DNA of 48,562 nucleotides, from contig CALWHT010000059.1 in assembly GCA_944380515.1 (NCBI GenBank), positions 1 to 48,562 of the forward strand, given 5' to 3'. The first letter of the stretch is position 1, and each line of letters opens with the position of its first letter. The stretch is from an uncultured Roseburia sp. (lineage in GTDB: Bacteria > Bacillota > Clostridia > Lachnospirales > Lachnospiraceae). The translations under genes and the position numbers were made by a program. The notes under the pieces were generated by a model. It did no database searches, was not told the origin of the DNA, and was given only the letters and a program-made list of their open reading frames with translations. Shown here piece after piece: positions 30,896-48,506 of this stretch.

Positions 30896-30915
30896 AAGAA
30901 ATCGAAAAACGAACA

Positions 30916-30978
30916 GTCGAAACGGAGCAACAGCTCCGTCATGCAGGGACAGCCTCCTGCATCTGATGATGACAGGCT
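30916..30978 (+). ncRNA. Type-II hammerhead-like self-cleaving RNA, copy 2
   Basis: In order: GTC (30916-30918), GAAA (30919-30922), helix III CGGAGC/GCTCCG (30923-30938, loop AACA), U and C17 (30939-30940, cleavage after 30940), helix I ATGCAGG/CCTGCAT (30941-30962), the full CTGATGA core (30963-30969), one extra T, then GAC closing helix II. The helix I loop AGCCT (30951-30955) pairs with AGGCT (30974-30978). All core nucleotides match the hammerhead. Compared with copy 1, helix I, helix III and the pseudoknot show compensating changes. It ends 2 bases before the transposase ribosome binding site. Confidence 0.75.
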
Positions 30979-30994
30979 ATAAGGTGGTGATGGA

Positions 30995-32950
30995 ATGGGA
31001 CAGATGCTTACCGCAAAGCAGGTGGCAGAGGTCAAAGGATGTAGTTTTCAATATGTTCAAAGGATAATTAAAGAAGGCAAGCTTCAGGCTCAGGAAGTCC
31101 TGAATGATAAAAACAGAAAGACCTATCTGGTACCGCTGGAGGTTCTGGATGAGGAACTGCAGCAGAAATGGTATCAGATGAATCTGGAGAACCCACCGGA
31201 GGATATAAAAGCTCCGGAGCCAGTACCGGAGAAAAAGGCGGTAGACCACTTCTCAGAAAGCGAAAGGCAGGAGATCGATTTCTGGATCAGCCTTGTGGAG
31301 CAGTGGCAGCAGTACCGGATGAAACCGGGAGTTACCTGTAAAGCTGAGGTTGATAAGAAATTCGTTGCATTATGCGGACTGGAGTACCCGGATAAAGAAA
31401 TTTCTGTTGATATCCTATACCGGAAGTGGAAAGCGATTAAGGAAAATGATTTAAGCGGTCTCATAGATAAGCGAGGAAAGTGGAAAAAAGGAACCAGCAC
31501 CATAGATGATACAATCTGGCAAGCGTTTCTGTATTTCTACCTCGATGAGAGCCAGCATCCGATTCAGAAGTGTTTGGATTACACAAAGATGTGGGCCCAG
31601 GAAAAGAGGCCAGATTTATATGCGGATATCCCGAGCTACTCTGCTTTTTACAGGCGACTCAAAAACGAGGTGCCGGAAGGTGTCAAGGTGCTGGGACGTG
31701 AGGGACATAAAGCCTACAATGACCGGTGTGCTCCATATATCCGGAGAATCTATGAGGATATTGCAAGCAACGAGTGGTGGATTGCTGATAACCATACCTT
31801 TGATGTCATGGTAAAGGACAAGAATGGAAACATCCACAGACCATATTTAACAGCGTTCCTGGATGCGCGAAGCGGTATTTTTACCGGCTTCCATGTCACT
31901 TACAATCCTTGTTCAGAAGCCACGCTGATAGCCTTACGAAAGGGAATTCTGGAGTATGGCATACCGGATAACATCTATGTAGATAATGGCCGCGAGTTCC
32001 TGACTTTTGATATTGGAGGCTTGGGACACCGTAAGAAGAAACCAAAGGATGGCGGAGAGAAATTTGAACCACCGGGAGTATTCAAGCGACTCGGCATTAA
32101 CATGACAAATGCGATTGTCCGGAATGCAAAAGCGAAGATCATTGAGAGGCGGTTCCGGGATGTTAAGGATGACCTCTCCAGATTGTTCAATACCTACACC
32201 GGAGGAAATGTGGTGGAGAAGCCGGAGCGGTTGAAATGCATTCTGAAGAAAGACCAGATTTATACAGATGAGGAATTTAAGGAGTATGTGGAAGCTGTGA
32301 TTAAATATTACTTTAACATGATGCCGTACAACGGCGCGGTGGAGATGGACAAGGGAAAGATTAAACAGGATGTTTTCAATGAGCATATAGCGGGCAGAAA
32401 ACGGATTGCGCCTGAAAAGGATTTAAATCTGATGCTGATGCGCAGCAGCAGACCCCAGCAGGTTACCAGGAGAGGCGTTCACTTGGATATTGGTGGCGGA
32501 CGTATCGATTTCTGGAATGATGATTTTGTACATCTGATGCTCGGAAAGAAGGTTTATTTCCGTTATGATCCGGAGAACCTGAGTGAGGTCAGAATTTACG
32601 ATCTGGAAGACCGGTACATCATGTCGGTACCAGCAGACAGCGAAGCAGTTCTTTCTTACGGTGCCGGCAAGGAGGATGTCAAAGCAGCAATGGCGAAGAC
32701 CAGAAGGCTGGAGCGTATCGCAAAGGAATACAAAGAGAATATCATTCTGGCAGAAGCAGACAGAATCACGGCGATGGAGCTTGTGCTTAAGCAGGCCGAG
32801 CGGAACAAAGCGAACTATAAGGGCAGGCCGAATCCTTCCATTCTTGAGGTTCAGAGGGCAGACGAAGAACCGGTATTTAAGAAGGTGGTCGGCGGTGCAG
32901 ACCTTGATGTAATGAATAGAAATGCAGCCAAAAGGCAAGGAGGTAAATGA
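30995..32950 (+). CDS. MuA-like DDE transposase
   Basis: The 651-aa protein has an N-terminal winged-helix binding domain ('LTAKQVAEVKGCSFQYVQRI', from residue 5), more DNA-binding helices, a DDE catalytic core and a beta-barrel/C-terminal tail. The catalytic residues are probably Asp in 'WWIADNHTFD' (about 265), Asp in 'YVDNGREF' (about 330) and Glu in 'AKIIERRF' (about 383). It integrates and replicates the phage by transposition and should bind the AATGCCAACC sites. The tail has the motif shared with the gene at 30151. The start follows AAGGTGGTG, directly after a ribozyme. Confidence 0.95.
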   Translation: MGQMLTAKQVAEVKGCSFQYVQRIIKEGKLQAQEVLNDKNRKTYLVPLEVLDEELQQKWYQMNLENPPEDIKAPEPVPEKKAVDHFSESERQEIDFWISLVEQWQQYRMKPGVTCKAEVDKKFVALCGLEYPDKEISVDILYRKWKAIKENDLSGLIDKRGKWKKGTSTIDDTIWQAFLYFYLDESQHPIQKCLDYTKMWAQEKRPDLYADIPSYSAFYRRLKNEVPEGVKVLGREGHKAYNDRCAPYIRRIYEDIASNEWWIADNHTFDVMVKDKNGNIHRPYLTAFLDARSGIFTGFHVTYNPCSEATLIALRKGILEYGIPDNIYVDNGREFLTFDIGGLGHRKKKPKDGGEKFEPPGVFKRLGINMTNAIVRNAKAKIIERRFRDVKDDLSRLFNTYTGGNVVEKPERLKCILKKDQIYTDEEFKEYVEAVIKYYFNMMPYNGAVEMDKGKIKQDVFNEHIAGRKRIAPEKDLNLMLMRSSRPQQVTRRGVHLDIGGGRIDFWNDDFVHLMLGKKVYFRYDPENLSEVRIYDLEDRYIMSVPADSEAVLSYGAGKEDVKAAMAKTRRLERIAKEYKENIILAEADRITAMELVLKQAERNKANYKGRPNPSILEVQRADEEPVFKKVVGGADLDVMNRNAAKRQGGK

Positions 32951-33915
32951 TGAGCAAACAGTATAACACACAGCTTCAGGAGAGATTGGAAAAGTTCCTG
33001 AAGGACGAAAATCTGAGTCAGGCAAAGGCAGCTCCGATTCTTGGGATCAGCCAGGCAACGCTAAGCCAGTACCGCAGAAGCATGTATGACAAGGGCGATA
33101 TTGAAGCGGTGGAAAATAAGCTGAAGGAGTTCTTCCAGATTCAGGAAGAGAAGACACAGAATGCGCAGAAAGCGGAGCCTTTCAGAACCAGGACTTCAGC
33201 CGGGTACATACCGACAACTATTTCCGAGGAAGCATACAAGCTGATCCGGTACTGCCAGCTGGAGAAAGGAATCGTGGTCATCGATGGGGATGCCGGAATT
33301 GGCAAGACCAAAGCAGCAGCTAAGTTCCTGCAGGATAATCCTTCAACAACCGTTTATGTGAAAGCAACACCGAGTACCGGCTCCACAAGAAGTCTTTTAA
33401 AGATGATTGCAAGGACATTAAAACTGCCGGAAAACCAGCGCACCGAGGATTTATCAGTATCCATTCAGGAAAAGCTTAAAGAGACGGATAAGGTTATTAT
33501 CATCGATGAAGCACAGAATCTCAAATTCCTCACTCTGGAAGAAATCAGAGGGTGGGTGGATGAGGACATATTTACCGGGAAGCCGGGTATCGGCATTGTC
33601 CTCATCGGAAATGTGGAAGTCTACAACAAGATGCTCGGAAAGCAGGAAGCAATTTTCGCTCAGCAGTTCAACCGCACGAAGCTCCATGGAAGGTACCGTA
33701 CCTCGGATATCCAGAGAGAGGATGTGGTCAAGTTTTTCCCGGTCTTGCAGGAGAAGGGAATGAAGAAGGAGATTGATTATCTTTTAAGCGTCAGCCACAG
33801 CAAATGGGGGATTCGGGGAATGGTAAGCGTGTTCAATAACGCTGTTAATAACGAGGATATTTCCTTTGAAGGGCTGGAAAAGATGGCTAATACTATGGGA
33901 ATACGGTTTATATGA
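32947..33915 (+). CDS. MuB-like AAA+ transposition ATPase
   Basis: The 322-aa protein has an N-terminal helix-turn-helix ('LSQAKAAPILGISQATLSQY', about 18-37), Walker A 'GDAGIGKTKA' near 114 and Walker B 'KVIIIDEAQN' near 184. MuB coats target DNA and activates MuA. Its start overlaps the transposase stop (ATGATGA at 32947-32953), so the two are coupled. Confidence 0.94.
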   Translation: MMSKQYNTQLQERLEKFLKDENLSQAKAAPILGISQATLSQYRRSMYDKGDIEAVENKLKEFFQIQEEKTQNAQKAEPFRTRTSAGYIPTTISEEAYKLIRYCQLEKGIVVIDGDAGIGKTKAAAKFLQDNPSTTVYVKATPSTGSTRSLLKMIARTLKLPENQRTEDLSVSIQEKLKETDKVIIIDEAQNLKFLTLEEIRGWVDEDIFTGKPGIGIVLIGNVEVYNKMLGKQEAIFAQQFNRTKLHGRYRTSDIQREDVVKFFPVLQEKGMKKEIDYLLSVSHSKWGIRGMVSVFNNAVNNEDISFEGLEKMANTMGIRFI

Positions 33916-34389: not shown

Positions 34390-34659
34390 ATGGTATTGAG
34401 AGAAAAAATGTACTTTGAACCACGAACAATCAGTTGCGGTGGAAGTATACGTTGGTTTGGAACGGCATATACGGCTCCTGAAATGCAAAAACATACGGAG
34501 GAGACAGTTTATATTCGAGATGACGGAAAGCGGCTATTTGTTTATGAACTTGACAGCGATAGGTTGTCGGATTCAGAGAAAATTGTGGCGATATTTACAT
34601 TGATTTGCAAGATTGAAAAAGCAGTTAGTGGATATCGGTATGGTAGGAAAATTACATAG
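34390..34659 (+). CDS. Small early phage protein, unknown
   Basis: The 89-aa protein has GAGGGAG before the start. It shows a beta-rich first half ('GGSIRWFGTAYTAPEMQ') and a helical end ('SEKIVAIFTLICKIEKAV'). No family is recognised. It is bounded by a twister-type RNA on each side together with the 51-aa gene, so the two form one processing block. Confidence 0.68.
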   Translation: MVLREKMYFEPRTISCGGSIRWFGTAYTAPEMQKHTEETVYIRDDGKRLFVYELDSDRLSDSEKIVAIFTLICKIEKAVSGYRYGRKIT

Positions 34660-35653: not shown

Positions 35654-36166
35654 ATGAAAACGATAGAGCAGTTTCAAATCAGGAAGATATATGCTATCGG
35701 CAGTGCGCTGGGTATCAAAGGCTCCGGAATGGATGAGGATGAACTTCATATGCTGGTAGGGGGAATTACCGGCAAAGCCTCCATCAAGAGTCTTACATAT
35801 AAAGAAGCTTGTGTGGTAATTGCACGTCTGGAAGAACTGCAGGGCAAAGCTGCCTCTCCCAAACAAGGGAATCGGAGGCCCAAGGAGCATAAAAGCACGC
35901 CGGGTGGTGTTACCCCTGGCCAGCAGAAAAAAATATGGGCGCTCATGTATGAACTCAAAAAATATGATGAAGTTCCAAATGACGTGCAGCTGGGCGACAG
36001 GCTCTGTGCAGTAATCAAAAAGGAGCTTGGTGCAGATGCTGTTGCGAAGAATCCTTTTGTATGGATGTCATTTAGGCAGGGGAATAATCTGATTGAGATT
36101 CTGAAGGGGTATGTGAAAAGTGCCAGGAGAAAGCGAGGTGCGACAGATGGGATTAACGCTGGGTGA
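35654..36166 (+). CDS. GemA/Mu gp16-like protein
   Basis: The 170-aa protein has the two-part GemA pattern: 'QFQIRKIYAIGSALGI' near the start, 'ITGKASIKSLTYKEACVVI' in the middle, then, after a basic linker, 'TPGQQKKIWALMYELKKYD' at about 97-115. GemA of Mu affects host gyrase-related expression. The RBS is AAAGGAGAGG. The mor gene overlaps its end by 20 bp. Confidence 0.85.
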   Translation: MKTIEQFQIRKIYAIGSALGIKGSGMDEDELHMLVGGITGKASIKSLTYKEACVVIARLEELQGKAASPKQGNRRPKEHKSTPGGVTPGQQKKIWALMYELKKYDEVPNDVQLGDRLCAVIKKELGADAVAKNPFVWMSFRQGNNLIEILKGYVKSARRKRGATDGINAG

Positions 36167-36461
36167 TCTTCGGGAAGAACAGAGACAGATTGCGGAAATC
36201 ATTGGTGTGGAGGCATACCTGAAATTAACAAGGGTGTTCGGTGGAACGACTATCTATATCGCTAAAGCTGAGGAGATTATAAAGCGGGCTGACCGAGACA
36301 GACAGATCAGGGAAGAATTTGATGGGAGTAATTACGCACAACTGGCTGTCAAATACGGATTGACAGAAGTCTGGATTAGAAATATAGTTTATGATAAAGC
36401 GGAAGAAATCAGGAGAAAGCCGATAGACGGCCAGATGAGCATGGAAGATTTTCTCACATAA
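36147..36461 (+). CDS. mor: Mor-family middle-operon activator
   Basis: The 104-aa protein ends with a Mor/C-type helix-turn-helix: 'IREEFDGSNYAQLAVKYGLTE' (about 58-78) followed by 'WIRNIVYDKAEEIRR'. The N-terminal part (about 5-45) is the dimerisation domain. Mor activates the middle promoter in Mu-like phages. Start 36147 has GAGGTG 7 bases upstream; the earlier GTG at 36120 is disfavoured. It is the last gene before the terminator at 36503, so it stands at the early/middle border. Confidence 0.9.
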   Translation: MGLTLGDLREEQRQIAEIIGVEAYLKLTRVFGGTTIYIAKAEEIIKRADRDRQIREEFDGSNYAQLAVKYGLTEVWIRNIVYDKAEEIRRKPIDGQMSMEDFLT

Positions 36462-36502
36462 AAAGAATAAATCACTTTATATGTACGAGTTATGAATTTA
36501 TA

Positions 36503-36540
36503 GATACACTTGCATTAAACACGCAGGTGTATCTTTTTTT
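36503..36540 (+). terminator. Intrinsic terminator at the early/middle border
   Basis: An 11-bp stem GATACACTTGC/GCAGGTGTATC (one G.T) is followed by seven T residues at 36534-36540. It ends only 18 bp before the next start codon, so it lies in the leader of the middle operon and could act as an attenuator. Confidence 0.88.
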
Positions 36541-36558: not shown

Positions 36559-36912
36559 ATGAATGAATGGATTATAACTACAGCAATCACATTGGGGATT
36601 GGAGTGATTACATATTTCCTGAAAAGGACAATGAAACAGGTGGATGATCAGGGAGCAAGGATTCAGGAACTGATACATCAGATGGCAACCAAAGCAGACC
36701 AAAAAGAGCAGACAGCAAAACTGGAAAAGGAAATCAGACAGATCAGGGATGATTACACACCAAAGGAAATGCACCAGAAGGATTTTGATGAGTGCAGAGG
36801 CGACATCAAGATAATCCGGGCAGAGTATCTGACGAAGGATGATTTTATCCGGGAAATGAACAAAATGGACAGGAAGCTGGATCAGATGCTTGAGCTTATG
36901 CTGAATAAATAG
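36559..36912 (+). CDS. DUF2730-like phage membrane/coiled-coil protein
   Basis: This 117-aa protein has one N-terminal membrane helix ('WIITTAITLGIGVITYFL', residues 4-21), then a long coiled coil rich in Lys and Glu. This matches the small membrane protein (DUF2730/gp25-like) found before the small terminase in Mu-like phages. Start 36559 follows GAGAGGG; the GTG at 36541 touches the terminator. Its role is unknown. Confidence 0.75.
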   Translation: MNEWIITTAITLGIGVITYFLKRTMKQVDDQGARIQELIHQMATKADQKEQTAKLEKEIRQIRDDYTPKEMHQKDFDECRGDIKIIRAEYLTKDDFIREMNKMDRKLDQMLELMLNK

Positions 36913-36924
36913 GAGGTTTGGGAA

Positions 36925-37263
36925 ATGAGCAGAGAAGCGGAAAAGAGGCAGCTGAGGGCGGGCAATTTTACGATGAACAATGGCAGGGTGTTATCAACTA
37001 TCAACCTGCTCCGGGAAAAATACAATGCGCTCCGCAGCGTGGAAAAAGCGGTCAGCTATGAAGGTATCGAAAAGCAGGAATTTGTTGACAGCGTGAATTT
37101 CCTTGCTGAAGAAGGCTACATCAATTTGCGGGACATCCATACACACGAGGCAGCAACGCTTGCAGATTATGATTATCAGACGCTGGAGGCCAGAGTCACT
37201 GGCAAAGGTATCCGGCTCCTTGGCGGTGGGATCACTGATAACATGGTTGATCTTGGCGATTAA
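36925..37263 (+). CDS. Mu gp26-position phage protein, unknown
   Basis: The 112-aa protein has a winged-helix-like pattern ('ALRSVEKAVSYEGIEKQEFV', 'FLAEEGYINLRDIHTHEAAT'). It lies between the DUF2730-like gene and the gp27-like small terminase, where Mu carries gp26. AGGAGG precedes the start. It may bind DNA or the terminase. The next start lies 2 bp after its stop. Confidence 0.72.
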   Translation: MSREAEKRQLRAGNFTMNNGRVLSTINLLREKYNALRSVEKAVSYEGIEKQEFVDSVNFLAEEGYINLRDIHTHEAATLADYDYQTLEARVTGKGIRLLGGGITDNMVDLGD

Positions 37264-37265
37264 CA

Positions 37266-37826
37266 ATGGAACAGAAGGATAGAAGACGCAGCATCGGCAA
37301 GGTGGACAGGTTACCGCCAGAACTGAAGGACACCGTGGAGCAGATGCTCCTGACCGGCTGCACGTATAAAGAAATTGTTGCATTCCTGAAAGAGAATGGC
37401 GAAGAAATGTCACAGATGGCAATCTGCACCTATGCGAAGAAGTATCTCGCCACCGTGGAGATGATAACCGTGGCACAGAGCAATTTCTCCATGTTGATGG
37501 ATGAAATGAACCGGTACCCGGAGTTGGACACATCGGAGGCACTTATCCGTCTGGCAAGCCATCATGTATTGAATGCCCTTACCAATGTGGATGAGGAGCA
37601 GATGAAGGAAGTTCCAATCGAAAAGCTGATTAAGGAGACGAATGGTCTTATCCGAGCAGCTGCATATAAGAAACGAATCGAAGTACAGAACCGTGATAAT
37701 TACGAAGCCGGTCTGGAGGCGGTCAAGAGCCTTGTATTTGAGGCTATGGCAAAGGAGAATCCGGAGTTGTACCGACAAGTCAGTGCGTATCTGAATAAGA
37801 AGAAAAACGAAGGACTGGAGGGATAA
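37266..37826 (+). CDS. DUF3486 / Mu gp27-like small terminase subunit
   Basis: The 186-aa protein opens with a basic segment and a helix-turn-helix ('LPPELKDTVEQMLLTGCTYKEIVAFLKENG' region, residues 16-45) and continues in long helices, as in Mu gp27 (DUF3486). Small terminases recognise the DNA to be packaged. It is followed 5 bp later by the NusG/LoaP-like gene, so TerS and TerL are split by a regulator and its terminator. Confidence 0.83.
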   Translation: MEQKDRRRSIGKVDRLPPELKDTVEQMLLTGCTYKEIVAFLKENGEEMSQMAICTYAKKYLATVEMITVAQSNFSMLMDEMNRYPELDTSEALIRLASHHVLNALTNVDEEQMKEVPIEKLIKETNGLIRAAAYKKRIEVQNRDNYEAGLEAVKSLVFEAMAKENPELYRQVSAYLNKKKNEGLEG

Positions 37827-37831
37827 AAGCG

Positions 37832-38398
37832 ATGTGGTATGTGATTCAGGTTATGACCGGCAAAGAAAATGATATCGCCGGGAAACTGAAAGAGCAGGGT
37901 ATCAGAGCTCTTGTTCCAAAAGAAAATCGTCTGATTCGCACCGGGGGCTCATGGACGCAGCGTGAGTACACTCTGTTTACCGGGTATGTGTTCCTGAGCA
38001 TGAACTACAATGCAGACAACTATTACAGGGTCAGGGGCATTCCGGGAGTGATTAAATTCCTCGGAGACAGCAGGAATCCGTCAAAACTTTCTTATTTGGA
38101 GGCTGAATGGATTAACTTGCTGACCGGAGTTGACAACGCACCAATTGAACCGACAACAGTCAAGGCTCTGGAGGACGGAAGCCTTAAGGTTGTGAAAGGT
38201 GTTCTTGAAAAATTTGAAAATCGCATTGTCAGGTATGACAAGCGGAGCCGGAAGGCAACCTTCGAGATTACGATTTGTAACGAGAAGAAAGAAGTCCAGC
38301 TGAGCATCGTGCTGGAAGATGATGAAATGAAAGCTGCAGAGGCTGGAAAGGATGGTCAGCCGGGAGCAGCGGAAACGGTTTTGAAAGAAGCTACCTGA
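37832..38398 (+). CDS. NusG/LoaP-type transcription elongation factor
   Basis: This 188-aa protein has a NusG N-terminal domain: 'MWYVIQVMTGKENDIA' (1-16), 'LFTGYVFLSM' (about 49-58) and 'YYRVRGIPGVIKFLG' (about 66-80). A KOW domain follows ('GSLKVVKGVLEKFENRIVRYD', about 111-131), then a short tail. It is not the housekeeping NusG, which sits with secE; it resembles LoaP-type paralogues that make RNA polymerase read through terminators of long operons. It is the last middle gene. A hairpin and a terminator follow, then the late genes. Confidence 0.88.
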   Translation: MWYVIQVMTGKENDIAGKLKEQGIRALVPKENRLIRTGGSWTQREYTLFTGYVFLSMNYNADNYYRVRGIPGVIKFLGDSRNPSKLSYLEAEWINLLTGVDNAPIEPTTVKALEDGSLKVVKGVLEKFENRIVRYDKRSRKATFEITICNEKKEVQLSIVLEDDEMKAAEAGKDGQPGAAETVLKEAT

Positions 38399-38415
38399 TA
38401 GTACACGGTTGATTC

Positions 38416-38440
38416 GTCCCGGTGCTGGAAGCAAGCGGAC
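38416..38440 (+). promoter_or_regulatory. Candidate LoaP RNA-recognition hairpin
   Basis: GTCC (38416-38419) and GGAC (38437-38440) enclose a symmetric CGG/AGC internal loop and a TGCT/AGCA stem with a GGA loop. It begins 17 bp after the LoaP-like stop codon and ends 10 bp before the terminator stem. This is the position expected for an RNA loading site. The role is an inference. Confidence 0.5.
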
Positions 38441-38450
38441 ATACAAGAAA

Positions 38451-38525
38451 GGAACTGAGCAGAAAAGGAGACTGGTTGGGTGGCGAAGCCTGCCTTTCAG
38501 ACCTTATTCTCGCAGTTCCTTTTTT
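38451..38525 (+). terminator. Intrinsic terminator before the late operon
   Basis: GGAACTG (38451-38457) pairs with CAGTTCC (38513-38519), followed by six T residues (38520-38525). The long loop holds an inner GGC-GAA-GCC hairpin. It lies between the LoaP-like gene and terL, so late transcription must either bypass it or start after it. Confidence 0.82.
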
Positions 38526-38666
38526 GATTGGCTAAAAAATACCGTTTAAAAAACCGCTAAACCCGTTTAAATTTGTTTGAATGATTAAAGTGGGGGAAAT
38601 TATCGCTGAAAAGAAAAAATTCAAATATGTGGCAAATACGAGCCTATAAATTCTAAAGAAAGGCAG
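38526..38666 (+). other. Late-operon leader, A/T-rich
   Basis: This 141-bp stretch has no supported gene. It carries several GTTTAAA motifs (around 38543, 38561 and 38570) like those in the prophage left end and at 43618-43640. No strong sigma-A promoter was recognised. A 9-codon frame (38674-38703, MCELERGKA) has a better-placed ribosome binding site than terL and may be a leader peptide or chance. Confidence 0.4.
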
Positions 38667-38675
38667 GTGGTGAAT

Positions 38676-40433
38676 GTGCGAACTGGAAAGAGGGAAAGCA
38701 TAGGCGTTCTGATCGGAGCGATGGCAGAAGCTGAGAGCAAAACTTTTTACGATGAAACAGAGATCGTTACGAATGATTTAAAAAGCCTTTTCAATACATT
38801 TTTGAAAAAAGACCAATCTCCGGAACGAGTTCAGATTTTGAAAGATTATGAAGCCGGAGCACCGCTTACCGGAAAGGGAGGTATCCGTCAGAGGTTGGGC
38901 GCCATTGATATGGAGTTCTTTGGCAGGGCGTACTTCCCACATTATTTCTCCAGACCATCTCCGGAATTCCACCGGGAACTGGACAACATTTGGCAGCAAG
39001 GGGTTTTGAAAGGGGAATATCCGACTACACCGGCAAAGGTAAAGAAAATCAGCCGGATGAACGGAACCAAGCGAGTGGTCGCAGCTCCCCGTGGACACGC
39101 AAAGTCCACGAGCCTTACTTTCAAAGGCAGCATCCATGCCATTGTTTATGAATACAAGCATTACCCGATTATCATATCTGACAGCTCGGAGCAGGCGGAA
39201 GGATTCCTGGACAATATCAGGGTAGAGTTTGAGGAAAACGAAGCTTTGAGGGAGGACTTTGGAAGCCTGATCGGAAAAGTCTGGAGAAGCAATGTGCTGA
39301 TTACCAGCACCAACATCAAGGTTGAGGCAATCGGCTCCGGAAAGAAGATCCGAGGCAGAAAACACCGAAACTGGAGGCCGGATCTTCTGGTTCTGGATGA
39401 TATTGAAAATGATGAGAACGTCCGGACGCCGGAGCAGCGAAAGAAACTTGAAAGCTGGTTTTTAAAAGCTGTTTCAAAAGCCGGAGATGATTACACGGAC
39501 ATTATCTATATCGGAACTTTACTGCATTATGACAGCCTTCTGGCGAAAACCCTGAATAATCCGGGTTACAAAGCCATTAAGTACAAGGCGGTCATTTCTT
39601 TTTCCAGCGAAGAGGATCTCTGGAAGGAATGGGAGGAAATCTACACAGACCTTTCAAATGAGAACCACGAAGCCGATGCAAAAGAGTTTTTTGAAAGGCA
39701 CCGGGAAAAGATGCTGGAAGGCACGGAGGTTCTGTGGGAGGAGAAACTGTCTTATTATGATCTGATGGTTATGAGGCTGACAGAAGGCGAAGCATCCTTC
39801 AACTCCGAGGAACAGAACGAGCCTATCAATCCGGAAGATTGTATTTTCAATCCTGAATGGTTTGAATTCTATAATGAAGCGGAAATCGACTTCAAGAACC
39901 GTGACTTCCTTTTCTTTGGTTTTGTCGATCCGTCACTTGGAAAGACCAAGCACAGCGACTTCTCCGCCATCATCACGCTGGCGAAGCACAAAGTATCCGG
40001 ATATATGTATGTCATGGATGCGGATATCGAACGCAGACATCCGGATAAAATCATCGGTGACATTCTGGAGAAAGAGAAGATGCTCCGCAGGGATTATGGC
40101 AGGGGCTATAAGAAGTTTGGAGCTGAGACGGTGCAGTTCCAGTGGTTCCTGAAGGAAGAGCTGGCAAAGGCATCCGCAAAGGCTGGCTTGTATCTTCCAA
40201 TCGAGGAGGTACCACAGACCAGCGATAAGACAATGCGTATCCAGACGATGCAGCCAGATGTAAAGAACCATTACATCAAGTTCAATAAAAGGCATAAGAG
40301 ACTGCTGGAACAGATGGAGCACTTCCCGATGGGAGCCCATGACGATGGCGTGGATGCTCTGGAAGGCTGCAGGACGATTGCCAAGAAGATGAAACGGTTC
40401 CGGGTGCTGGATAAAGGAAAATTAGGATTGTAG
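38676..40433 (+). CDS. Terminase large subunit (TerL)
   Basis: The protein of about 585 residues has Walker A 'AAPRGHAKSTS' near 136, Walker B 'LLVLDDIEND' near 237 and a C-terminal RNase-H-like nuclease with Asp in 'FVDPSLGKTKHSD' near 416 and 'GAHDDGVDALE' near 553. It packages phage DNA into heads. The start is uncertain: GTG 38676 has AGGCAGG 8 bases upstream, while GTG 38667 and ATG 38721 are alternatives. It is the first gene after the LoaP-linked terminator. Confidence 0.93.
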   Translation: MRTGKRESIGVLIGAMAEAESKTFYDETEIVTNDLKSLFNTFLKKDQSPERVQILKDYEAGAPLTGKGGIRQRLGAIDMEFFGRAYFPHYFSRPSPEFHRELDNIWQQGVLKGEYPTTPAKVKKISRMNGTKRVVAAPRGHAKSTSLTFKGSIHAIVYEYKHYPIIISDSSEQAEGFLDNIRVEFEENEALREDFGSLIGKVWRSNVLITSTNIKVEAIGSGKKIRGRKHRNWRPDLLVLDDIENDENVRTPEQRKKLESWFLKAVSKAGDDYTDIIYIGTLLHYDSLLAKTLNNPGYKAIKYKAVISFSSEEDLWKEWEEIYTDLSNENHEADAKEFFERHREKMLEGTEVLWEEKLSYYDLMVMRLTEGEASFNSEEQNEPINPEDCIFNPEWFEFYNEAEIDFKNRDFLFFGFVDPSLGKTKHSDFSAIITLAKHKVSGYMYVMDADIERRHPDKIIGDILEKEKMLRRDYGRGYKKFGAETVQFQWFLKEELAKASAKAGLYLPIEEVPQTSDKTMRIQTMQPDVKNHYIKFNKRHKRLLEQMEHFPMGAHDDGVDALEGCRTIAKKMKRFRVLDKGKLGL

Positions 40434-40445
40434 GAGGTAACGGCC

Positions 40446-41822
40446 ATGCCGGTTATTTACATGGAAAGGGCTTCCATTGAAAGCCTGACGGAAAAAGATA
40501 TCCGGGAGATTATCAATGCGAACAGCACGGATGTAAAATACGGAATGCTGCATAATTACTATGTGGGAGAGCACAGAATACTTGGCGAAAGCAAGAAGGA
40601 CAGCACAGCCCCGAACAACCGCCTGGTCAACAATATGGCAAAATACATCACGGACACCGCCACCGGTTACTTCGTGGGTGAGCCGATTGTCTATGACTCC
40701 CAGAATGATGAATACCTGCAGATGGTGCAGGATATTTTTGATTACAACGATGAGCAGGATCACAACATGGAGCTGGCCAAGCAGTGCAGCATCTGCGGAA
40801 GCTGCTTTGAAATGCTCTATCTGGATGAGGATGCCAAGATAAGGCTCGCAAGGGTTCCGGCTGCTAGCGGAATTATGATTTGCGAGACGGACAGTGGGTT
40901 TTCTACTCCGATGGCTTTTATACGGACGATTATTTCAAAGGATAAGGATGATAACGTAATCAGGAAGGTGGAGTTCTGGAATTCCAGTCTGGTGATGCAC
41001 TTCCGGTCAGTGAATGGCGGGTACCTGAATCTGATTGCAGTGGAAGAACACTACTGGCAGGATGTTCCTTTTGTGGAATACATCAACAACGAGGAAAGGC
41101 TTGGAGATTTTGAGGGTGTCATTACAGAGATTGATGCCTATAACAAAGTGCAGAGTAACACTGCAAACTATTTCCAGTATAACGATGATGCCATTTTAAA
41201 GGTTTTAAAACTTGGAGATGTCAGCAGTCAGGACATTGCTGACATGAAGGAAAAAGGAGCTATCATTCTGGAGGATGGCGGTGATGTGGCATGGCTTTTG
41301 AAGACCATTGACGATACCGCACTGGAGAACTACAAGAACCGGCTCCGTGAGGATATCCATACCGGGGCAAATGTACCGCACATGTATGATGCGTCCTTTG
41401 GAGGCAATCTCTCCGGAGTGGCGATATCTTATAAGCTGTGGGGCTTGGAGCAGATATGCTCCATCAAGGAACGAAAGTTCAAGAAGGGTCTGCAGCGCAG
41501 AATCGAGCTGATCACCAATATCCTGAATATCATGGGACACAGCTATGATTACAGAGACATTGTTCCGAAGTTCCGCAGGAACCGTCCGCAGAATGATATG
41601 GAAACAGCGCAGATTATCACGATGCTGGCAAATGACCTTTCAAGGGAAACCAGACTGCAGCTGATGCCTGGTGTTGAAAATGTCCAGGATGAGCTGAGAA
41701 AGCTGGAGGAAGAAAAGAACAAGGAGCAGGAAGACTTCGGAGTATATCAGAATCTTATCAGGGCTTTTCAGGGTGCAGCTGACGGAACGGAGGCGGTAAC
41801 GGATGAGCCAGAGGGAACGTAA
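40446..41822 (+). CDS. SPP1 gp6-type portal protein
   Basis: The 458-aa protein has the gp6/SPP1 portal layout: 'YYVGEHRIL' near 38-46, 'NNRLVNNMAKYITDTATGYFVGEP' region at about 58-81, 'AEVNPR'-like stem helices and an acidic tail. It forms the dodecameric DNA gate of the head. Classic Mu uses a DUF935 portal instead, so this phage mixes Mu-type transposition with an SPP1-type head. Its end overlaps the MuF gene by 20 bp. Confidence 0.9.
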   Translation: MPVIYMERASIESLTEKDIREIINANSTDVKYGMLHNYYVGEHRILGESKKDSTAPNNRLVNNMAKYITDTATGYFVGEPIVYDSQNDEYLQMVQDIFDYNDEQDHNMELAKQCSICGSCFEMLYLDEDAKIRLARVPAASGIMICETDSGFSTPMAFIRTIISKDKDDNVIRKVEFWNSSLVMHFRSVNGGYLNLIAVEEHYWQDVPFVEYINNEERLGDFEGVITEIDAYNKVQSNTANYFQYNDDAILKVLKLGDVSSQDIADMKEKGAIILEDGGDVAWLLKTIDDTALENYKNRLREDIHTGANVPHMYDASFGGNLSGVAISYKLWGLEQICSIKERKFKKGLQRRIELITNILNIMGHSYDYRDIVPKFRRNRPQNDMETAQIITMLANDLSRETRLQLMPGVENVQDELRKLEEEKNKEQEDFGVYQNLIRAFQGAADGTEAVTDEPEGT

Positions 41823-43362
41823 CGAGTGGATTGAACGGGCCAAACAGAGGGTGCTTGATAATGCAGAAACAACGGATCATTCCGTGAAGGAGATCATGGT
41901 TCTTTTTGATGAAGCAGCGTGGCAGCTGGAAACGGAACTGAATGCAATGTTCCAGAAATACGCCACAGAGAACGGTCTGACCAATGCGGAGGCTTCCAGG
42001 ATGCTGACCGGCAGCGAATACAGCCGGTGGCGGAAAGGGATTGATGAATACCTGAAGGAGGCGGAAGGGGATTCCAGGACGCTTCTGGAGCTGAACACAC
42101 TGGCAGCCAAGTCGCGGATTAGCAGGAAGGAGCAGATGCTTGCTACCGTTTACCAGACCATGATAACACTGTCGAGGGATACGGAAACGAAGCTGACGGA
42201 TCTGTTGGGCGATATGTTCAAGACCAATTATTACCGGGGCTGTTATGATGTACAGAGCATTCTTGGTGTTGGATTCAATGTTTCCAAGGTGGATGTGAAG
42301 ATGCTCCAAAGGATACTGAAGCATCCGTGGTCTGGTAAAAATTATTCGCAGGCCCTGTGGGAAAACACCGATAAACTCGCTGCTCTTGCCAAGAGGGAGC
42401 TGACGCTGGGATTTATGATGGGTTCCAGTGTCCAGAAGATGGCAAAGGAAATCAATGATGTCATGGGGAAGGGGCGTTATGCAGCAGAAAGGCTTGTCCG
42501 GACGGAGAGCAGCTACTTTTCCAATCAGGGCGAGCTGGCTTCATACCGGGAGATGGGCTTTTCAGAATATACCTTTCTTGGCGGGGGCTGCGATGACTGC
42601 ATGGCGCTGAACGGTCATGATTTTCCAGTGGATGAGGCGGAGCCGGGACTGAATCTGCCGCCGATCCATCCCAACTGTAAATGCACAACGGTACCAAAGA
42701 CCGGCATAGATTTATTCAAAGACCGGGAGGGTGTGAACCCACTGGAGGACAATCCGAAATTTGAGGAGTGGAAGAAAAAATATGTAAAGGACAAAGGGCT
42801 TTCAGCTACGGTTGGCGGTACCGATGGCGTCCCGAAACATGAGGAAAAGAAACTTCTTGAACAGATTGACTTTAATGATACCCGGCTGGTAAAATCAAGG
42901 ATAAGGAATTACACCGAGCAGATCGCTGGAGATAATACCAAAGAGAACGCAGTCTGCATTACAAGGAATGGTAGCGTATATCACTGCAGCGGTGTTTCCG
43001 GAGCGGTATATCCGGATTTTGATCTGGGAGATGAACTGGTCGGAGCGTATGTGACGCATAACCATCCTATATCAGAGACGCATTTTTCCTTTAGCGACAG
43101 GGACATAAGCCTGTTCATGGAATATAATCTTCCGGAGCTGGTTGGTGCGGATGAAAAGTATGTTTATACAATATCCCGTACAGCAGAGACGGAATATGCC
43201 GATCTTGCAACGCTGGTTCATGCATACAGAGGAGATTTATATTCCGAGTGCCTGCAGGCAATGTTCACGGGAGAAATAGATCCGGATACAGACGAGTATG
43301 ACTTTATAGTGAGGAGGCTTGCGGAAAAATATGGCTTCAAATATGAAAGATCGGAACGATAA
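41803..43362 (+). CDS. MuF-type head morphogenesis protein with C-terminal JAMM/JAB domain
   Basis: The 519-aa protein has a helical N-terminal half, then the MuF Cys/His signature 'GGCDDCMALNGHDFP' (about 261-275) with 'PPIHPNCKC' (about 286-294). A further domain of about 150 residues is fused at the end. It has 'HNHP' at 419-422, Ser at 429 and Asp at 432 (HNHPx6SxxD, RadC spacing), with Glu381 upstream: a complete JAMM metal site. It could be a capsid-linked metalloprotease or a MuF-polymorphic effector injected with DNA. The small gene at 43331 overlaps its end. Confidence 0.85.
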   Translation: MSQRERNEWIERAKQRVLDNAETTDHSVKEIMVLFDEAAWQLETELNAMFQKYATENGLTNAEASRMLTGSEYSRWRKGIDEYLKEAEGDSRTLLELNTLAAKSRISRKEQMLATVYQTMITLSRDTETKLTDLLGDMFKTNYYRGCYDVQSILGVGFNVSKVDVKMLQRILKHPWSGKNYSQALWENTDKLAALAKRELTLGFMMGSSVQKMAKEINDVMGKGRYAAERLVRTESSYFSNQGELASYREMGFSEYTFLGGGCDDCMALNGHDFPVDEAEPGLNLPPIHPNCKCTTVPKTGIDLFKDREGVNPLEDNPKFEEWKKKYVKDKGLSATVGGTDGVPKHEEKKLLEQIDFNDTRLVKSRIRNYTEQIAGDNTKENAVCITRNGSVYHCSGVSGAVYPDFDLGDELVGAYVTHNHPISETHFSFSDRDISLFMEYNLPELVGADEKYVYTISRTAETEYADLATLVHAYRGDLYSECLQAMFTGEIDPDTDEYDFIVRRLAEKYGFKYERSER

Positions 43363-43570
43363 AAAGGCATGGGCGAAATATGAAAAAGCCGCAAAGGAGC
43401 TGATGGCGGAGGCCATGAAGAAAAGAAAGGCAATTGAAAAGAAATATGCAAAAACCGGGCAGCCCCAATATGGCATGGACGGAAGTCCTGGGGAGAAGGA
43501 GCTTGGAGAGGTTACCAAGTGGTACGGAGAAGAAATTAAAAAATTGCGTGAGCAGTATGGTATTAAATAG
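43331..43570 (+). CDS. Small charged protein after MuF-JAMM
   Basis: The 79-aa protein is highly charged and helical, with many Lys/Glu ('KYEKAAKELMAEAMKKRKAI' near 14-33), and no known family. It overlaps the MuF end by 32 bp in another frame. GGAGG lies 13 bases before 43331; ATG 43343 is an alternative. By analogy with MuF polymorphic toxins it might be a partner or immunity protein, but nothing in the sequence shows that. Confidence 0.55.
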   Translation: MASNMKDRNDKKAWAKYEKAAKELMAEAMKKRKAIEKKYAKTGQPQYGMDGSPGEKELGEVTKWYGEEIKKLREQYGIK

Positions 43571-43650
43571 GACACCCGGCAGGGTGTCTATTTAATTGCA
43601 AAAATATGGACATGGGCACCGTTTAAAAGAATTTTAAAAGGTGCTTTTGT
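43571..43650 (+). terminator. Two hairpins between head genes
   Basis: GACACCC/GGGTGTC (about 43571-43588) is followed by a T/A-rich run. GCACC...GGTGC (about 43616-43643) holds an inner TTTAAAA/TTTTAAA stem and ends in TTTTGTT. Both look like terminators inside the late operon, again needing read-through. Confidence 0.6.
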
Positions 43651-43682
43651 TATACAAAAATTTAGACCAGGAGGTAGAAGAA

Positions 43683-44324
43683 ATGGATGGAACAACCACT
43701 ATGCAGGGTGCTGAGCAGGAAGTTCAGAACACTGCAACAGAAACACAGGGACAGCAGACAGCGGAAAGCACGCCGGAGAAAGTAAGTGCCCTCCAGAAGT
43801 TTATCAACGGACTTTTCGGCGGAGGCAAGGAGGCTGACGGTGCTGAATCTGAAAAGAAGGAAAGCGAAGCTGCAGCGGAAGGAGCTGCGGAAGAGAAGTC
43901 CTTCACTCAGGCAGATGTAGATGCTGCCATCGAAGCTGCAAAACAGCAGTGGTTAGAGGAAGCTGCAGAGGCAGAGCGTGTGGGGAAACTCACTCCGGAA
44001 GAAAAGGCAAAAGAGGAGCAGGAGAAAAAAGATTCCGAGATTGCCAGCTTAAGAAGCCAGCTCCTGCAGAAAGAGTTAAGAGAGAATGCAACCAAGGCAC
44101 TGGAAGCAGATGGTTTCCCGGTTGGTCTTGCGGATGTGCTAGACTATTCCAACAGGGAACGCATGGAAGCGACACTGGACAGCACCACAAAGGTATTCAA
44201 GGACAGTCTGGCAGCGGCGATCCAGTCCCGGCTGAAGGGCAGGACACCAGAAGGGCTCGGCGGAGCAGCATCTGCAGAAAATCTGCTGAGAGACCAGATT
44301 GCAAAAAATATCAGAGGATTATAA
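43683..44324 (+). CDS. Capsid scaffolding protein
   Basis: The 213-aa protein is rich in Glu, Ala and Gln, with a low-complexity first half and long coiled coils ('EEQEKKDSEIASLRSQLLQK' near 115-134). This is typical of phage scaffold (DUF4355-like) proteins placed before the capsid gene. Start 43683 follows AGGAGG; the upstream 43641 frame is inside the hairpin. It guides head assembly and is then removed. Confidence 0.8.
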   Translation: MDGTTTMQGAEQEVQNTATETQGQQTAESTPEKVSALQKFINGLFGGGKEADGAESEKKESEAAAEGAAEEKSFTQADVDAAIEAAKQQWLEEAAEAERVGKLTPEEKAKEEQEKKDSEIASLRSQLLQKELRENATKALEADGFPVGLADVLDYSNRERMEATLDSTTKVFKDSLAAAIQSRLKGRTPEGLGGAASAENLLRDQIAKNIRGL

Positions 44325-44339
44325 GGGAGGAAAAGGTAA

Positions 44340-45266
44340 ATGAATACCATTGAAACAGCAACAATTATTCAGAGCGAGTTAGACAAGGCTGCAGTGGAGC
44401 AGGCTACTTCCGGCTGGATGGAAGTAAATGAAAAGCTGGTTAAGTACACCGGCGGTGCAGAGGTCAAAATTCCGAGCCTCGATATGGACGGAATGGCTGA
44501 CTATGACCGCACCAATGGATTCGTGCAGGGCAGCGTGAATTTCCAGTATGAAACCAGGAAGATGACTCAGGACAGAGGACGTTCTTTCAGCTTTGATGAG
44601 AACGATGTGGATGAGACCAACTTTGTATTGACTGCATCCACTGTTATGGGCGAATTCCAGAGAACCAAGGTTGTTCCTGAGATTGATGCATATCGTTACA
44701 GTACCATTGCTGCAGCGTGTATTGAGAAGGGCAAGGCATCCGGAGGTTATACCGCTGATGAAGCAACCATTCTCCAGAAGCTTTACTATGATATTGCAGC
44801 TGTTCAGGCGATTGTGGGACAGAACACACCGCTGGTTATTACCATTGATTCCATGGTAGCAGCAATCTTAAGCATGTCTGAAAAGCTCTCAAAGAGGCTG
44901 GATATAACCGATTTCAAGCAGGGAGATGTAACTCTTAAGGTTCGCAGCCTGGATGGTATCCATCCTTTAATCCCGGTAAGTTCCGACAGAATGAAGACCG
45001 AGTACCTTTTCAAGGATGGCGTGACTTCCGGTCAGGAAGCCGGCGGTTTTGCTCCTACTGAAAACAGCAAGAGCATTAACTGGATCATTACTCCGAGAAA
45101 GGCACCTATTGCAGTGTCCAAGACGGATAAGATGAGAATTTTTGATCCGGAAACCAACCAGAAGGCAAGAGCGTGGGCGATGGATTACCGTAAATTCCAC
45201 GATATCTGGATTACCAATCGGAAGGTGGAGCAGTGCTTTGTTAATGTGAAAGAAGCATTGGCATAG
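44340..45266 (+). CDS. Major capsid protein
   Basis: The 308-aa protein fits a short HK97-fold coat: N-terminal arm, 'YTGGAEVKIPSLDMDGMADY' (about 36-55), 'FQYETRKMTQDRGRSFSFDE' (about 67-86) and 'VPVSSDRM'-like P-domain strands, ending 'FHDIWITNRKVEQCFV'. It follows the scaffold by 16 bp with GGGAGG before the start and precedes connector genes, as expected. Confidence 0.85.
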   Translation: MNTIETATIIQSELDKAAVEQATSGWMEVNEKLVKYTGGAEVKIPSLDMDGMADYDRTNGFVQGSVNFQYETRKMTQDRGRSFSFDENDVDETNFVLTASTVMGEFQRTKVVPEIDAYRYSTIAAACIEKGKASGGYTADEATILQKLYYDIAAVQAIVGQNTPLVITIDSMVAAILSMSEKLSKRLDITDFKQGDVTLKVRSLDGIHPLIPVSSDRMKTEYLFKDGVTSGQEAGGFAPTENSKSINWIITPRKAPIAVSKTDKMRIFDPETNQKARAWAMDYRKFHDIWITNRKVEQCFVNVKEALA

Positions 45267-45281
45267 GGGAAGGAGTAAACC

Positions 45282-45662
45282 ATGAGTGAGATCGTATTAA
45301 AGAGAGCGAATGTAGTGAAGCGTGTTGATTCCGAGGATAAAGCCAGGGCTCTGGAAGCACAGGGCTTTGTAAGAACAGATGGAACAGTTACGAAAAAATC
45401 AGAAAGCAATGCTGCATCTGAAGCTGTGATCAATGAACTGAAAGGGCAGCTTTTAAATGCAGGAAAAGTCATTGAAGCATCGGATACCAGAAGGGGAGAA
45501 TTGGAAAAGGAGCTGGCTTCGATGAAAGAAAAGCTGGAAGAGGCTTCTAAATACGCAGAAGAAGCTGATAAAAAGATCGCTACTCTGGAAGCCGAACTTT
45601 CTGGCACGAAGGAGCAGTTGGAGGCTGCGGTAAAGAAAAATAAGGCTGCAGAGAAAAAATAA
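45282..45662 (+). CDS. Coiled-coil head protein, unknown
   Basis: The 126-aa protein has a small N-terminal domain ('VVKRVDSEDKARALEAQGFV', about 10-29) followed by a continuous coiled coil ending in Lys-rich sequence. It lies between capsid and connector, where phages often carry a head-decoration or Rho-like N-domain protein. Its function is not known. Confidence 0.62.
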   Translation: MSEIVLKRANVVKRVDSEDKARALEAQGFVRTDGTVTKKSESNAASEAVINELKGQLLNAGKVIEASDTRRGELEKELASMKEKLEEASKYAEEADKKIATLEAELSGTKEQLEAAVKKNKAAEKK

Positions 45663-45674
45663 GGAGGAGCTGCA

Positions 45675-46052
45675 ATGACGAAGGAGCAGGAGGATTGGCT
45701 GGTAGCGGAAGTGATGGACAGCATGAAGATGTCAGAAACGGAAGAACGGTCAGCCCGAAGGTATGTCAAAAGAGCAGTGGATAAAATCCTGATTTATTGC
45801 AACCGTGAAGATCTGCCGGAGCAGCTGCTTGGCACTGCAACACAGATCGCTGAAGATATGCTGAAGGCTGATCTGGTAAAGACCGGCGAGAAGGAAGTGG
45901 CGAGTATCAATCGTGGTGATACCGCCATTTCTTATCGTGACGGAAGTGGTAATCAGAAAGCCACTGTTGATTTTATGAAGGACTATGAAAAATCCCTTAA
46001 CCGTTTTAAGAAAATAAACCTGCCGAAGGATTTGGCAAATGACAGAAGCTGA
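45675..46052 (+). CDS. Head-tail connector protein
   Basis: The 125-aa protein is largely helical ('EDWLVAEVMDSMKMSETE', 'YVKRAVDKILIYCNR'), matching the gp6-like/gp15-type DNA-packaging connector placed after the capsid. It has AGGAGG before the start and overlaps the next gene by 14 bp. Confidence 0.75.
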   Translation: MTKEQEDWLVAEVMDSMKMSETEERSARRYVKRAVDKILIYCNREDLPEQLLGTATQIAEDMLKADLVKTGEKEVASINRGDTAISYRDGSGNQKATVDFMKDYEKSLNRFKKINLPKDLANDRS

Positions 46053-46401
46053 TATCCTCGCAACAACATACGAAGATACCGTGACCGTTTACAGGGCTTT
46101 CAAAGATACCCTTCCGGGTGGCGAGAGCGTCTTCAAAAGCGGTCTGGAGGGAAAGGTTGTGTATGAGGATGTGGAGTGTGCATTGTCTACACATACCGGT
46201 GGGAAACTGCAACAGTCGAAATCTATTGCGAAGACGGACACCACATTTTGTCTGTTTACCCGTCCGGAAATTGATATCCAGGCCAATGATTTCCTTGTGA
46301 TCCTGCACTTGGGAAAGAAGATTGAAGCGGTTGCGGGCTTTCCGGAATGCATGAAGTCCCATAACAATATCCCGGTCAAGCTGGATAAAGAAATTGTCTG
46401 A
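46039..46401 (+). CDS. Head closure/stopper-like protein
   Basis: The 120-aa protein is beta-rich ('DTVTVYRAFKDTLPGGESVF', about 13-32; 'CLFTRPEIDIQANDFLVI', about 70-87). That fits the SPP1 gp16-type stopper or head closure family by position between connector and tail completion genes. The identification is mainly by order. Confidence 0.7.
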   Translation: MTEADILATTYEDTVTVYRAFKDTLPGGESVFKSGLEGKVVYEDVECALSTHTGGKLQQSKSIAKTDTTFCLFTRPEIDIQANDFLVILHLGKKIEAVAGFPECMKSHNNIPVKLDKEIV

Positions 46402-46795
46402 TACCGAGTATAAGTTTGATGGGCTGGAAGAATGGGAGAAACGACTCTCACAGGCCATAGAAAGCCAGTACCCGGCTGAATTTAGGGAAATGGTTCTCAA
46501 ACTGGCTGGAAAGCTGTTGAAAAATGTCAAAGATAACACTCCAGTCAAAACAGGACACCTCAGACGTGAGTGGCACGTTGGCAGCATAAAGCAGAGAGGC
46601 AGCGAATACTACATCGAGGTCTATAACAACGTGGAGTATGTCGAGCCGGTGGAATATGGACACCGGACAAGAGGTGGAAAGGGCTTTGTAAAAGGAGCCC
46701 ACATGATGGAGCTTTCCCTTCAGGAAGTGCAGAAACACCTTCCCGGTTATCTCCGGGAGTGGATGAATGACTTCCTGAATACCCATGAACTTTAG
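46394..46795 (+). CDS. HK97 gp10-like tail-completion protein
   Basis: The 133-aa protein has the gp10-like pattern 'KDNTPVKTGHLRREW' (about 47-61), then 'VYNNVEYVEPVEYGHRTRG' (about 75-93). It starts with TTG and overlaps the previous gene by 8 bp. It probably joins tail and head. Confidence 0.82.
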   Translation: MSDTEYKFDGLEEWEKRLSQAIESQYPAEFREMVLKLAGKLLKNVKDNTPVKTGHLRREWHVGSIKQRGSEYYIEVYNNVEYVEPVEYGHRTRGGKGFVKGAHMMELSLQEVQKHLPGYLREWMNDFLNTHEL

Positions 46796-46805
46796 GAGGT
46801 GGACT

Positions 46806-47261
46806 ATGGAACATCCGATTATCCAGATAAAAAATGCAATCACAGCATTGCTGAAAGGGATTGATCCGGATACCGATGTCTTTTACGAGGAAATAAAAGG
46901 CACGGAAGAAAAGCATGGGCTTGATGAGCCGGAAACCTATTACTTCGTAGATATTATCCCGAATGGAAACAAAACGGTTGACAGATTCTTTACGGATGTG
47001 GGGATTTTGGTGGATATTGCATACCACGAAAAAAGCGAGAGCAATACCGCCTATTTGATAAAAGGGGCAGAACTTGATGCGGTTATGCGTCCGGTGTTCA
47101 GTTTTGGAGACCGGCATATAACCATCAATGATGCCAGTATGAAAGTATCAGATCATGTGCTGCATTACAGTTTCGCCATTAACTTCCGTCAGGCACGGGA
47201 GCAGACGAATGAGTTTGAACCGATGGGCGAGCTGGACGTGGCTATTAAAAAAGGAGTGTGA
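46806..47261 (+). CDS. Tail terminator-like protein (DUF6838-like)
   Basis: The 151-aa protein begins 'EHPIIQIKNAITALLKGI' and has alternating strands such as 'VDIAYHEKSESNTAYLIK' (about 73-90). This is the layout of tail terminator proteins upstream of sheath genes. Start 46806 follows AGGAGGTGG; the 46785 frame is rejected. Confidence 0.75.
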   Translation: MEHPIIQIKNAITALLKGIDPDTDVFYEEIKGTEEKHGLDEPETYYFVDIIPNGNKTVDRFFTDVGILVDIAYHEKSESNTAYLIKGAELDAVMRPVFSFGDRHITINDASMKVSDHVLHYSFAINFRQAREQTNEFEPMGELDVAIKKGV

Positions 47262-47266
47262 TTGAA

Positions 47267-48337: not shown

Positions 48338-48350
48338 GAGGAAATCAGAT

Positions 48351-48479: not shown

Positions 48480-48506
48480 CGGGAGGATTACCGCCCGTCA
48501 GATTTT
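48475..48506. terminator. Terminator-like hairpin after the truncated tube gene
   Basis: A 9-bp perfect stem TCTGACGGG/CCCGTCAGA (48475-48483, 48494-48502) is followed by TTTT. It overlaps the stop codons of the truncated gene and of the minus-strand partial frame. Confidence 0.75.

Follow-up and report, generated by a model that had tools for sequence, protein, structure and literature searches.

LoaP, a NusG paralogue, binds a UNCG hairpin and antagonizes NusA at an intrinsic terminator, and the put and EAR RNAs act on RNA polymerase without a dedicated protein; we know of no NusG paralogue that partners these two antiterminator RNAs. The cascade of phage Mu proceeds through two activators, Mor and then C, and in lambda the regulator Q, which is not NusG-like, sits before the late operon and its terminator. 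Loading of lambda-type Q is described as involving a specific DNA element and a sigma-dependent pause (PMC7171158), and the LoaP of B. velezensis as acting via a hairpin of UNCG type found in both the dfn leader and the mln leader, each of which also holds a putative intrinsic terminator, with R41 and likewise E40 described as RNA-recognition residues (PMC12691694, mBio 2025). RAGATH-28 (RF03052) is an orphan RNA, entered in Rfam as type gene/sRNA. The matches listed in our literature search included no published link between RAGATH-28, LoaP and phages, and the name RAGATH-28 does not occur in any of the 5.39 million papers searched. In the locus considered here the RNA lies directly behind a gene for a NusG paralogue, and the pair probably constitutes, on the evidence of sequence comparison, a late-gene antitermination module of Mu-like phages.

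The window, i.e., the whole stretch of 48,562 nucleotides that was analyzed, belongs to a contig of a 3.07 Mb genome of an uncultured Roseburia sp., and a Mu-like prophage occupies its end. The prophage encodes the Mu-type transposase MuA (30995-32950), a MuB-like ATPase (32947-33915), GemA (35654-36166) and a Mor/C-family transcription activator (36120-36461, + strand; PF08765, 61.8 bits; PHROG 836 and 532, late transcriptional activator), followed by two small genes, the Mu Gp27-like terminase small subunit TerS (37266-37826, +; PF11985, 61.7 bits; PHROG 426) and, adjoining it downstream, the 188-residue LoaP-type protein (37832-38398, +), whose gene is the last one ahead of the RNA element. 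A spacing of 268 bases, containing the RNA, a terminator and a set of repeats, separates this gene from terL, the large terminase subunit gene and first of the late genes (38667-40433, +; TIGR01630, 75.7 bits), 3′ of which lie an SPP1-type portal, MuF and a scaffold gene, so that the original prediction of terL and structural genes at this place holds. The transposase, GemA, the position of Mor after the early genes, the Gp27-type TerS and MuF are shared with phage Mu; unlike Mu, the window phage has no second Mor/C gene that we could find, and it has LoaP as the last gene of the middle operon, at the point where C would be expected to act. With lambda Q it shares a late regulator gene placed ahead of the late operon and its terminator, and with EAR and put a long transcript that is headed by structured RNA. 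The C-terminal domain of the Mu transposase was found in 20 of 34 phage records, many of the other records being short.

Some further features of the prophage may be recorded here. A small ORF apart from MuA (34390-34659) matches the Mu-transposase C-terminal domain at 29.2 bits, and similar small pieces occur in some relatives. An Rfam scan of the whole window returned two matches, RAGATH-28 and a type II hammerhead just before MuA (30915-30981); the latter type is also present in related phages, in six copies in L092, three in L072 and two in L059. Three direct copies of AATGCCAACC, seen by eye at 27869-28215, left of the repressor gene, are perhaps near the prophage end.

The ORF at 37832-38398 had been read as a specialised NusG with NGN and KOW domains, and this is borne out by the PF02357 matches (64.7 and 63.2 bits) and by the predicted model (pLDDT 93), which contains both domains and whose best structural match is the LoaP-RNA complex 8f5g, its protein being LoaP by NF033641. 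The phage protein itself scores 112.1 bits with NF033641, below the curated cut-off of 125, and because NusG-clade proteins come nearly as high (112.0 bits for L150) this score alone does not separate LoaP from NusG and was dropped as proof of LoaP. The phylogeny that had been proposed as a check does separate the protein from NusG and places it in a clade of its own: 31 phage proteins form one clade (SH-aLRT 97), the NusG clade stands apart (99), and the phage clade sits beside, not inside, two clades of cellular LoaPs. One other PF02357 gene was found in the genome, and it groups with the NusGs. The arginine R36, invariant in 27 of 27 phage proteins, aligns with R41 of B. velezensis LoaP in an alignment made by eye through the ER motif of 8f5g and L144, in which the window residue opposite E40 is I35. 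As far as sequence can tell, the phage protein works like LoaP, although it falls outside strict curated membership. A NusG-type match on the contig of L075 (G160, 1827-2094) is split over two overlapping frames, so that this loaP copy may be broken or the contig erroneous.

The RNA occupies 87 nt (38403-38489, +) and scores 60.6 bits with RF03052, whose gathering score is 45.3; by score and by layout it is a member of RAGATH-28, and what the locus adds to the Rfam entry is a partner protein, a position ahead of late genes and a longer context that includes a terminator. Its 5′ hairpin P1 (38403-38424, +; ACACGG-UU-GA-UUCG-UC-CCGGUG) consists of a GG/CC stem, a 2-nt UU bulge, GA/UC and a UUCG tetraloop (38413-38416), and has the conserved UUGAUUCGUC loop of the family. 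P1 is weak when folded alone in the window (−2.1 kcal/mol, z +1.1), its support being comparative: over 32 aligned RNAs its covariation score is 0.380, against 0.167 ± 0.021 in shuffled alignments and a maximum of 0.147 when slid. The second helix, P2 (38455-38479, +), pairs CTGAGCAG (38455-38462) with CTGGTTGG (38472-38479), and in 31 RNAs the own arms reach −8.87 kcal/mol vs. −5.59 ± 0.36 for swapped arms, with 0 of 5000 swaps as low; swaps of this kind leave relatedness in place. The element ends in the GGCGAAGC box (38482-38489, +), nearly invariant in 32 phage RNAs and more conserved than the P1 stem. Loop variants stay within the UNCG class in L153 (UGCG) and in L173 (UACG, with compensated GG/CC), and leave it in L174, in the second copy of L140 and in L141.

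The hairpin picked originally was a compact one at 38416-38440. This is a fold of the single sequence, and since it shares bases with P1 the two cannot form together; the conserved hairpin is P1, and we accordingly gave up 38416-38440 as a LoaP site. Two other pairings were considered. That of UUCGUC (38413-38418) with GGCGAA (38482-38487) was dropped, both strings being nearly invariant and therefore beyond what covariation can test, and an outer helix P3 (GG-N-CA with UG-CC, from CAUA to the 3′ end) is unsupported in the phages and is not claimed, its key pair being CG in 11, CA in 8, TA in 5, TG in 3 and something else in five of the 32 phage RNAs. The likeness to the B. velezensis system extends from the NGN-KOW paralogue and the arginine aligned with R41 to a hairpin of UNCG type, judged by the loop that is described for those leaders, and to an intrinsic terminator, both of them ahead of a long operon. 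The phage system differs in that the protein is phage-encoded, in a separate clade and below the NF033641 cut-off, in that the RNA lies behind the loaP gene, perhaps in the conserved P2 and GGCGAAGC core of that RNA, and in its target, which would be the late operon of a Mu-like phage.

The strong intrinsic terminator that had been placed at 38451-38525 is confirmed, the segment 38445-38525 (+) folding at −33.9 kcal/mol (z −3.9 vs. 200 dinucleotide shuffles), with a stem of 38450-38457 and 38513-38520 and a T-run at 38520-38525. Its left arm overlaps that of P2. In the clade of the window the terminator is indeed built on the RNA itself, its left arm taking 5-6 bases of the P2 left arm in five of eight members; in L106 the arm has 3 bases in common with a fold that is not P2, and no overlap came out of the script for L063 or L079. 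Where the arm is shared P2 and the terminator exclude each other, and in the window the terminator is far more stable than the P2 fold (−31.5 vs. −5.0 kcal/mol). Most relatives likewise have terminators that separate the RNA from the late genes, the farthest lying +181 nt from the box: L024, L035 and L065 have theirs at +14 to +32 nt, and many other phages have a separate hairpin with a T-tract at about +117 to +181 nt. A simple scan for such hairpins in this interval was positive in 20 of 28 loci, where shuffles predict 5.9, although at least four of the 20 hits (L021, L092, L106, L108) differ from the hairpin taken as the terminator. The scan misses the terminator of the window because of its large inner part, and folding finds it; folding likewise rescued L002, L024, L059, L063, L081 and, weakly, L079. 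By eye L175 and L010 have weak candidates only, and in L091 none was seen. As for the further hairpins announced at 43571-43650, a hairpin does exist at 43570-43589 (−14.8 kcal/mol, z −4.1) with a poor T-tail, and terminator-like sites over 36800-48562 (18 found, 11.8 ± 3.8 expected) are hardly above chance.

The association of RNA and protein was followed beyond the window. An RNA-only DNA pattern search of IMG/VR gave 100 stretches, 26 of which qualify under the string rule GGTTGATTCGTCC...GGCGAAGC; 25 of these had been chosen by eye. In 25 of the 26 contigs a PF02357 gene and an RF03052 match are present, the RNA downstream on the same strand, while the remaining one (L041), which looked like a chance match, lacks a NusG gene and is without an RF03052 match up to E 0.1; PF02357 was found in 0 of 50 control contigs, drawn from the other 75 pattern loci and L041 among them. 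Starting from the protein alone, six contigs were obtained, three already among the 25 and three new ones (L106, L108 and L109, the last two near copies), all of which carry the RNA. The score exceeds the RF03052 gathering score in 26 of these 28 contigs (25 from the pattern, three picked by protein). Within an annotated phage collection 20 records have LoaP-like matches; of the six that were fetched three, all from gut phages, carry the RNA, L175 at 46.9 bits and, below the gathering score, L173 at 43.1 and L174 at 38.5, and two, L176 and L177, have no RNA and encode proteins that fall among the housekeeping NusGs in the tree. Among 145 genomes near that of the window RAGATH-28 was found in the own genome only, and among 398 genomes of the phylum in three, two of them over the cut-off; both counts are lower bounds obtained with strict filters, and the phylum count missed G391, whose locus L153 carries the element by eye and at 30.9 bits. 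RAGATH-28-like copies also occur in L140 (G460), where two stand in tandem, and in L141 (G362), beside a LoaP-like gene and with a SAF-domain gene downstream. The sixth of the fetched records, the unrelated Sinorhizobium phage phi3LM21 (L259, 2221-3113), encodes a NusG paralogue a short way ahead of its terminase genes, followed by a terminator-like hairpin, and has no GGCGNAGC box on the NusG strand in the 5.5 kb examined; it is perhaps an independent case of the same layout.

LoaP lies 5′ of the RNA on the same strand in 35 of 35 RNA loci examined, the box following the tblastn match to LoaP by about 44-390 nt, and TerS lies 5′ of LoaP in 31; the four loci in which TerS was not found are two that end too early (L013, L063) and two different elements (L140, L141). 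The terminase behind the RNA varies. A TerL homologous to that of the window starts 149-206 nt past the box in 17 of the 35 loci, and when ten ORFs from eight divergent loci were tested for terminase type, a TerL of Terminase_3 or Terminase_6N type scored over the cut-off in four (L059, L075, L091, L103), L011 had a match below it, the single L174 ORF had none, and L140 and L141 had the SAF-domain protein 3′ of the RNA. A constant order of TerS, LoaP and RNA before different terminases indicates a regulatory block that persists through exchange of head modules. Antitermination of the LoaP type into the late genes, as originally proposed, remains the best reading of the sequence and gains strength from the comparison, in which LoaP, RNA and, in most cases, a terminator stay together ahead of different head modules, over what the single window could give; what has changed is that the protein misses the NF033641 cut-off and that the signal is RAGATH-28.

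The replacement of the usual C activator by LoaP, also part of the original prediction, needs to be restated, because the Mor/C-family gene at 36120-36461 (PF08765) had been overlooked; given its presence, the family as a whole has not given way to LoaP. It is the one PF08765 gene found in the genome, and among 31 phage records 26 have exactly one Mor/C gene and five none that we found (four of these are shorter than 9 kb), so that neither in the genome nor in any of the records was a second Mor/C gene found. This fits loss of C but not of Mor. Mor may act close to its own gene: a dyad at 36468-36479 is followed by a −10-like hexamer, TACACT (36505-36510), located in the left arm of a hairpin with a T-tract (36502-36534; −16.7 kcal/mol, z −8.2), and we read this combination (36468-36540, +) as perhaps a middle promoter that depends on Mor and lies nested within the terminator of early transcription. 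TANNNT stands in the left arm of the intrinsic terminator after mor in 16 of 21 phages, and a perfect TAAAGTACTTTA-type dyad precedes it in L024, L033, L072, L079 and L081, the L033 hairpin itself not having been found by the script. The window dyad has two mismatches and is the closest match in the phage part, such matches being no rarer than chance over the window.

Taken together, a switch in two steps, in which Mor acts on a middle promoter and LoaP with RAGATH-28 then brings about antitermination into the late genes, presumably with no second late activator, appears likely. Early transcription would yield Mor and halt at the terminator at 36502-36540. Mor would then switch on the middle promoter, with its −10 element in the left arm of the same terminator; middle transcripts would start within the terminator and so escape it. 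The middle operon closes with TerS and loaP, and as long as LoaP is absent polymerase would stop at 38445-38525; once made, LoaP would bind the UUCG hairpin at the 5′ end of RAGATH-28 as the RNA leaves RNA polymerase, join the polymerase via its NGN domain and allow read-through into terL and the structural genes. In the clade of the window a further effect would come from P2, which competes with the terminator for a shared left arm. Many other phages have a separate terminator some 120-180 nt past the box, and there the action has to move along with the polymerase.

One feature has no place in this model and is the main reason for doubt. Phased TTTAAA-like repeats (38544-38582, +), up to four and 10-11 nt apart, lie behind the RNA in most phages; the motif, chosen after looking at the sequences, reaches 8.7 per kb in the RNA-terL interval of 31 RNAs vs. 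0.65 per kb elsewhere in the same loci. These repeats might form an operator or a promoter for late transcription, and the late genes could use an activator-dependent promoter of their own within 38526-38666, with Mor or another protein at the repeats and with LoaP and the RNA merely tuning or insulating the middle operon, a possibility that we consider unlikely. A Mor/C-family activator is present, as in Mu, the enrichment falls on this interval, and an AT-rich element was seen by eye behind the repeats in several relatives. Yet no consensus sigma-70-type promoter, of the kind that had been named from the outset as evidence against LoaP control, is listed within 38526-38666, where the conserved repeats do lie, and a Mor-type dyad with up to three mismatches is unmatched in the interval. 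In many relatives, moreover, the terminator lies downstream of the repeats, so that a promoter at the repeats would meet it without the RNA in its transcript. Similar repeat clusters occur at about 28018-28195, at the left end, and at 43621-43640, before the scaffold gene.

The box is not confined to phages. Among the LoaP-like loci of named bacterial genomes we took the best 80 of 199, which include some close relatives and one protein that groups with the NusGs (L254), and looked within 300 nt upstream or from +495 to +1100 of the gene start: the box GGCGNAGC is present on the loaP strand in 39 of these 80 loci and on the opposite strand in two, and is preceded by CAUA or UAUA in 32, against one on the other strand. 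In many Lachnospiraceae genomes it lies 5′ of loaP. The hairpin before the box differs by clade and covaries, the Lachnospiraceae type forming 5.38 of 6 outer pairs vs. 3.81 ± 0.22 when swapped (0/5000; 16 rows) and the UGUUUCGGC type 5.25 of 6 vs. 3.93 ± 0.36 (4/5000; 8 rows). Eight such loci were run against Rfam, and none matched the element. A 5′-bulged UNCG hairpin near a loaP-like gene is weak evidence by itself, with 15 regions on the loaP strand and 7 on the opposite one, and by strand the box is the better sign of a loaP-linked RNA. A box beside bacterial loaP-like genes, preceded by clade-specific covarying hairpins, makes RAGATH-28 look like the phage branch of a LoaP-linked class. 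We think it reasonably probable that this class is general across Bacillota and beyond, combining a clade-specific recruitment hairpin (in phages, clostridia and Paenibacillus with a UNCG loop and a bulge on the 5′ side, in Lachnospiraceae with the loop UCGUCGC..GCCGC) with a common core, CAUA - P2 - GGCGAAGC, whose target is the polymerase, and that Mu-like Bacillota phages made the module their late-gene switch instead of C.

A core that exceeds the P1 stem in conservation and reappears behind other 5′ hairpins next to bacterial loaP-like genes is what would be expected if the core had a target of its own, and RAGATH-28 might accordingly act alone on RNA polymerase, as put or EAR RNAs do, with LoaP accessory or itself regulated by the RNA. 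We regard this as quite unlikely, as a NusG paralogue adjoins every RNA locus examined, whereas a protein-free element should sometimes stand alone, and as the action of LoaP is described as that of a protein dependent on a hairpin (PMC12691694). It is very improbable that RNA and terminator serve feedback only, controlling the loaP transcript (its 3′ end, stability or attenuation) and not the late operon, for although the box keeps close to LoaP in all 35 loci and stands 5′ of loaP in many Lachnospiraceae, the phage RNA is 3′ of loaP and ahead of the late genes even when those are swapped.

With LoaP-dependent antitermination as the preferred reading, the orphan Rfam RNA RAGATH-28 gains a partner protein and a likely job, and the way in which a group of transposable phages activates its late genes can be predicted. 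The GGCGAAGC core would be the second, conserved half of LoaP-linked RNAs and could be used to find LoaP-controlled operons, and a mechanism of processive antitermination in Gram-positive bacteria becomes testable with a compact module, a single gene plus about 130 nt of RNA.
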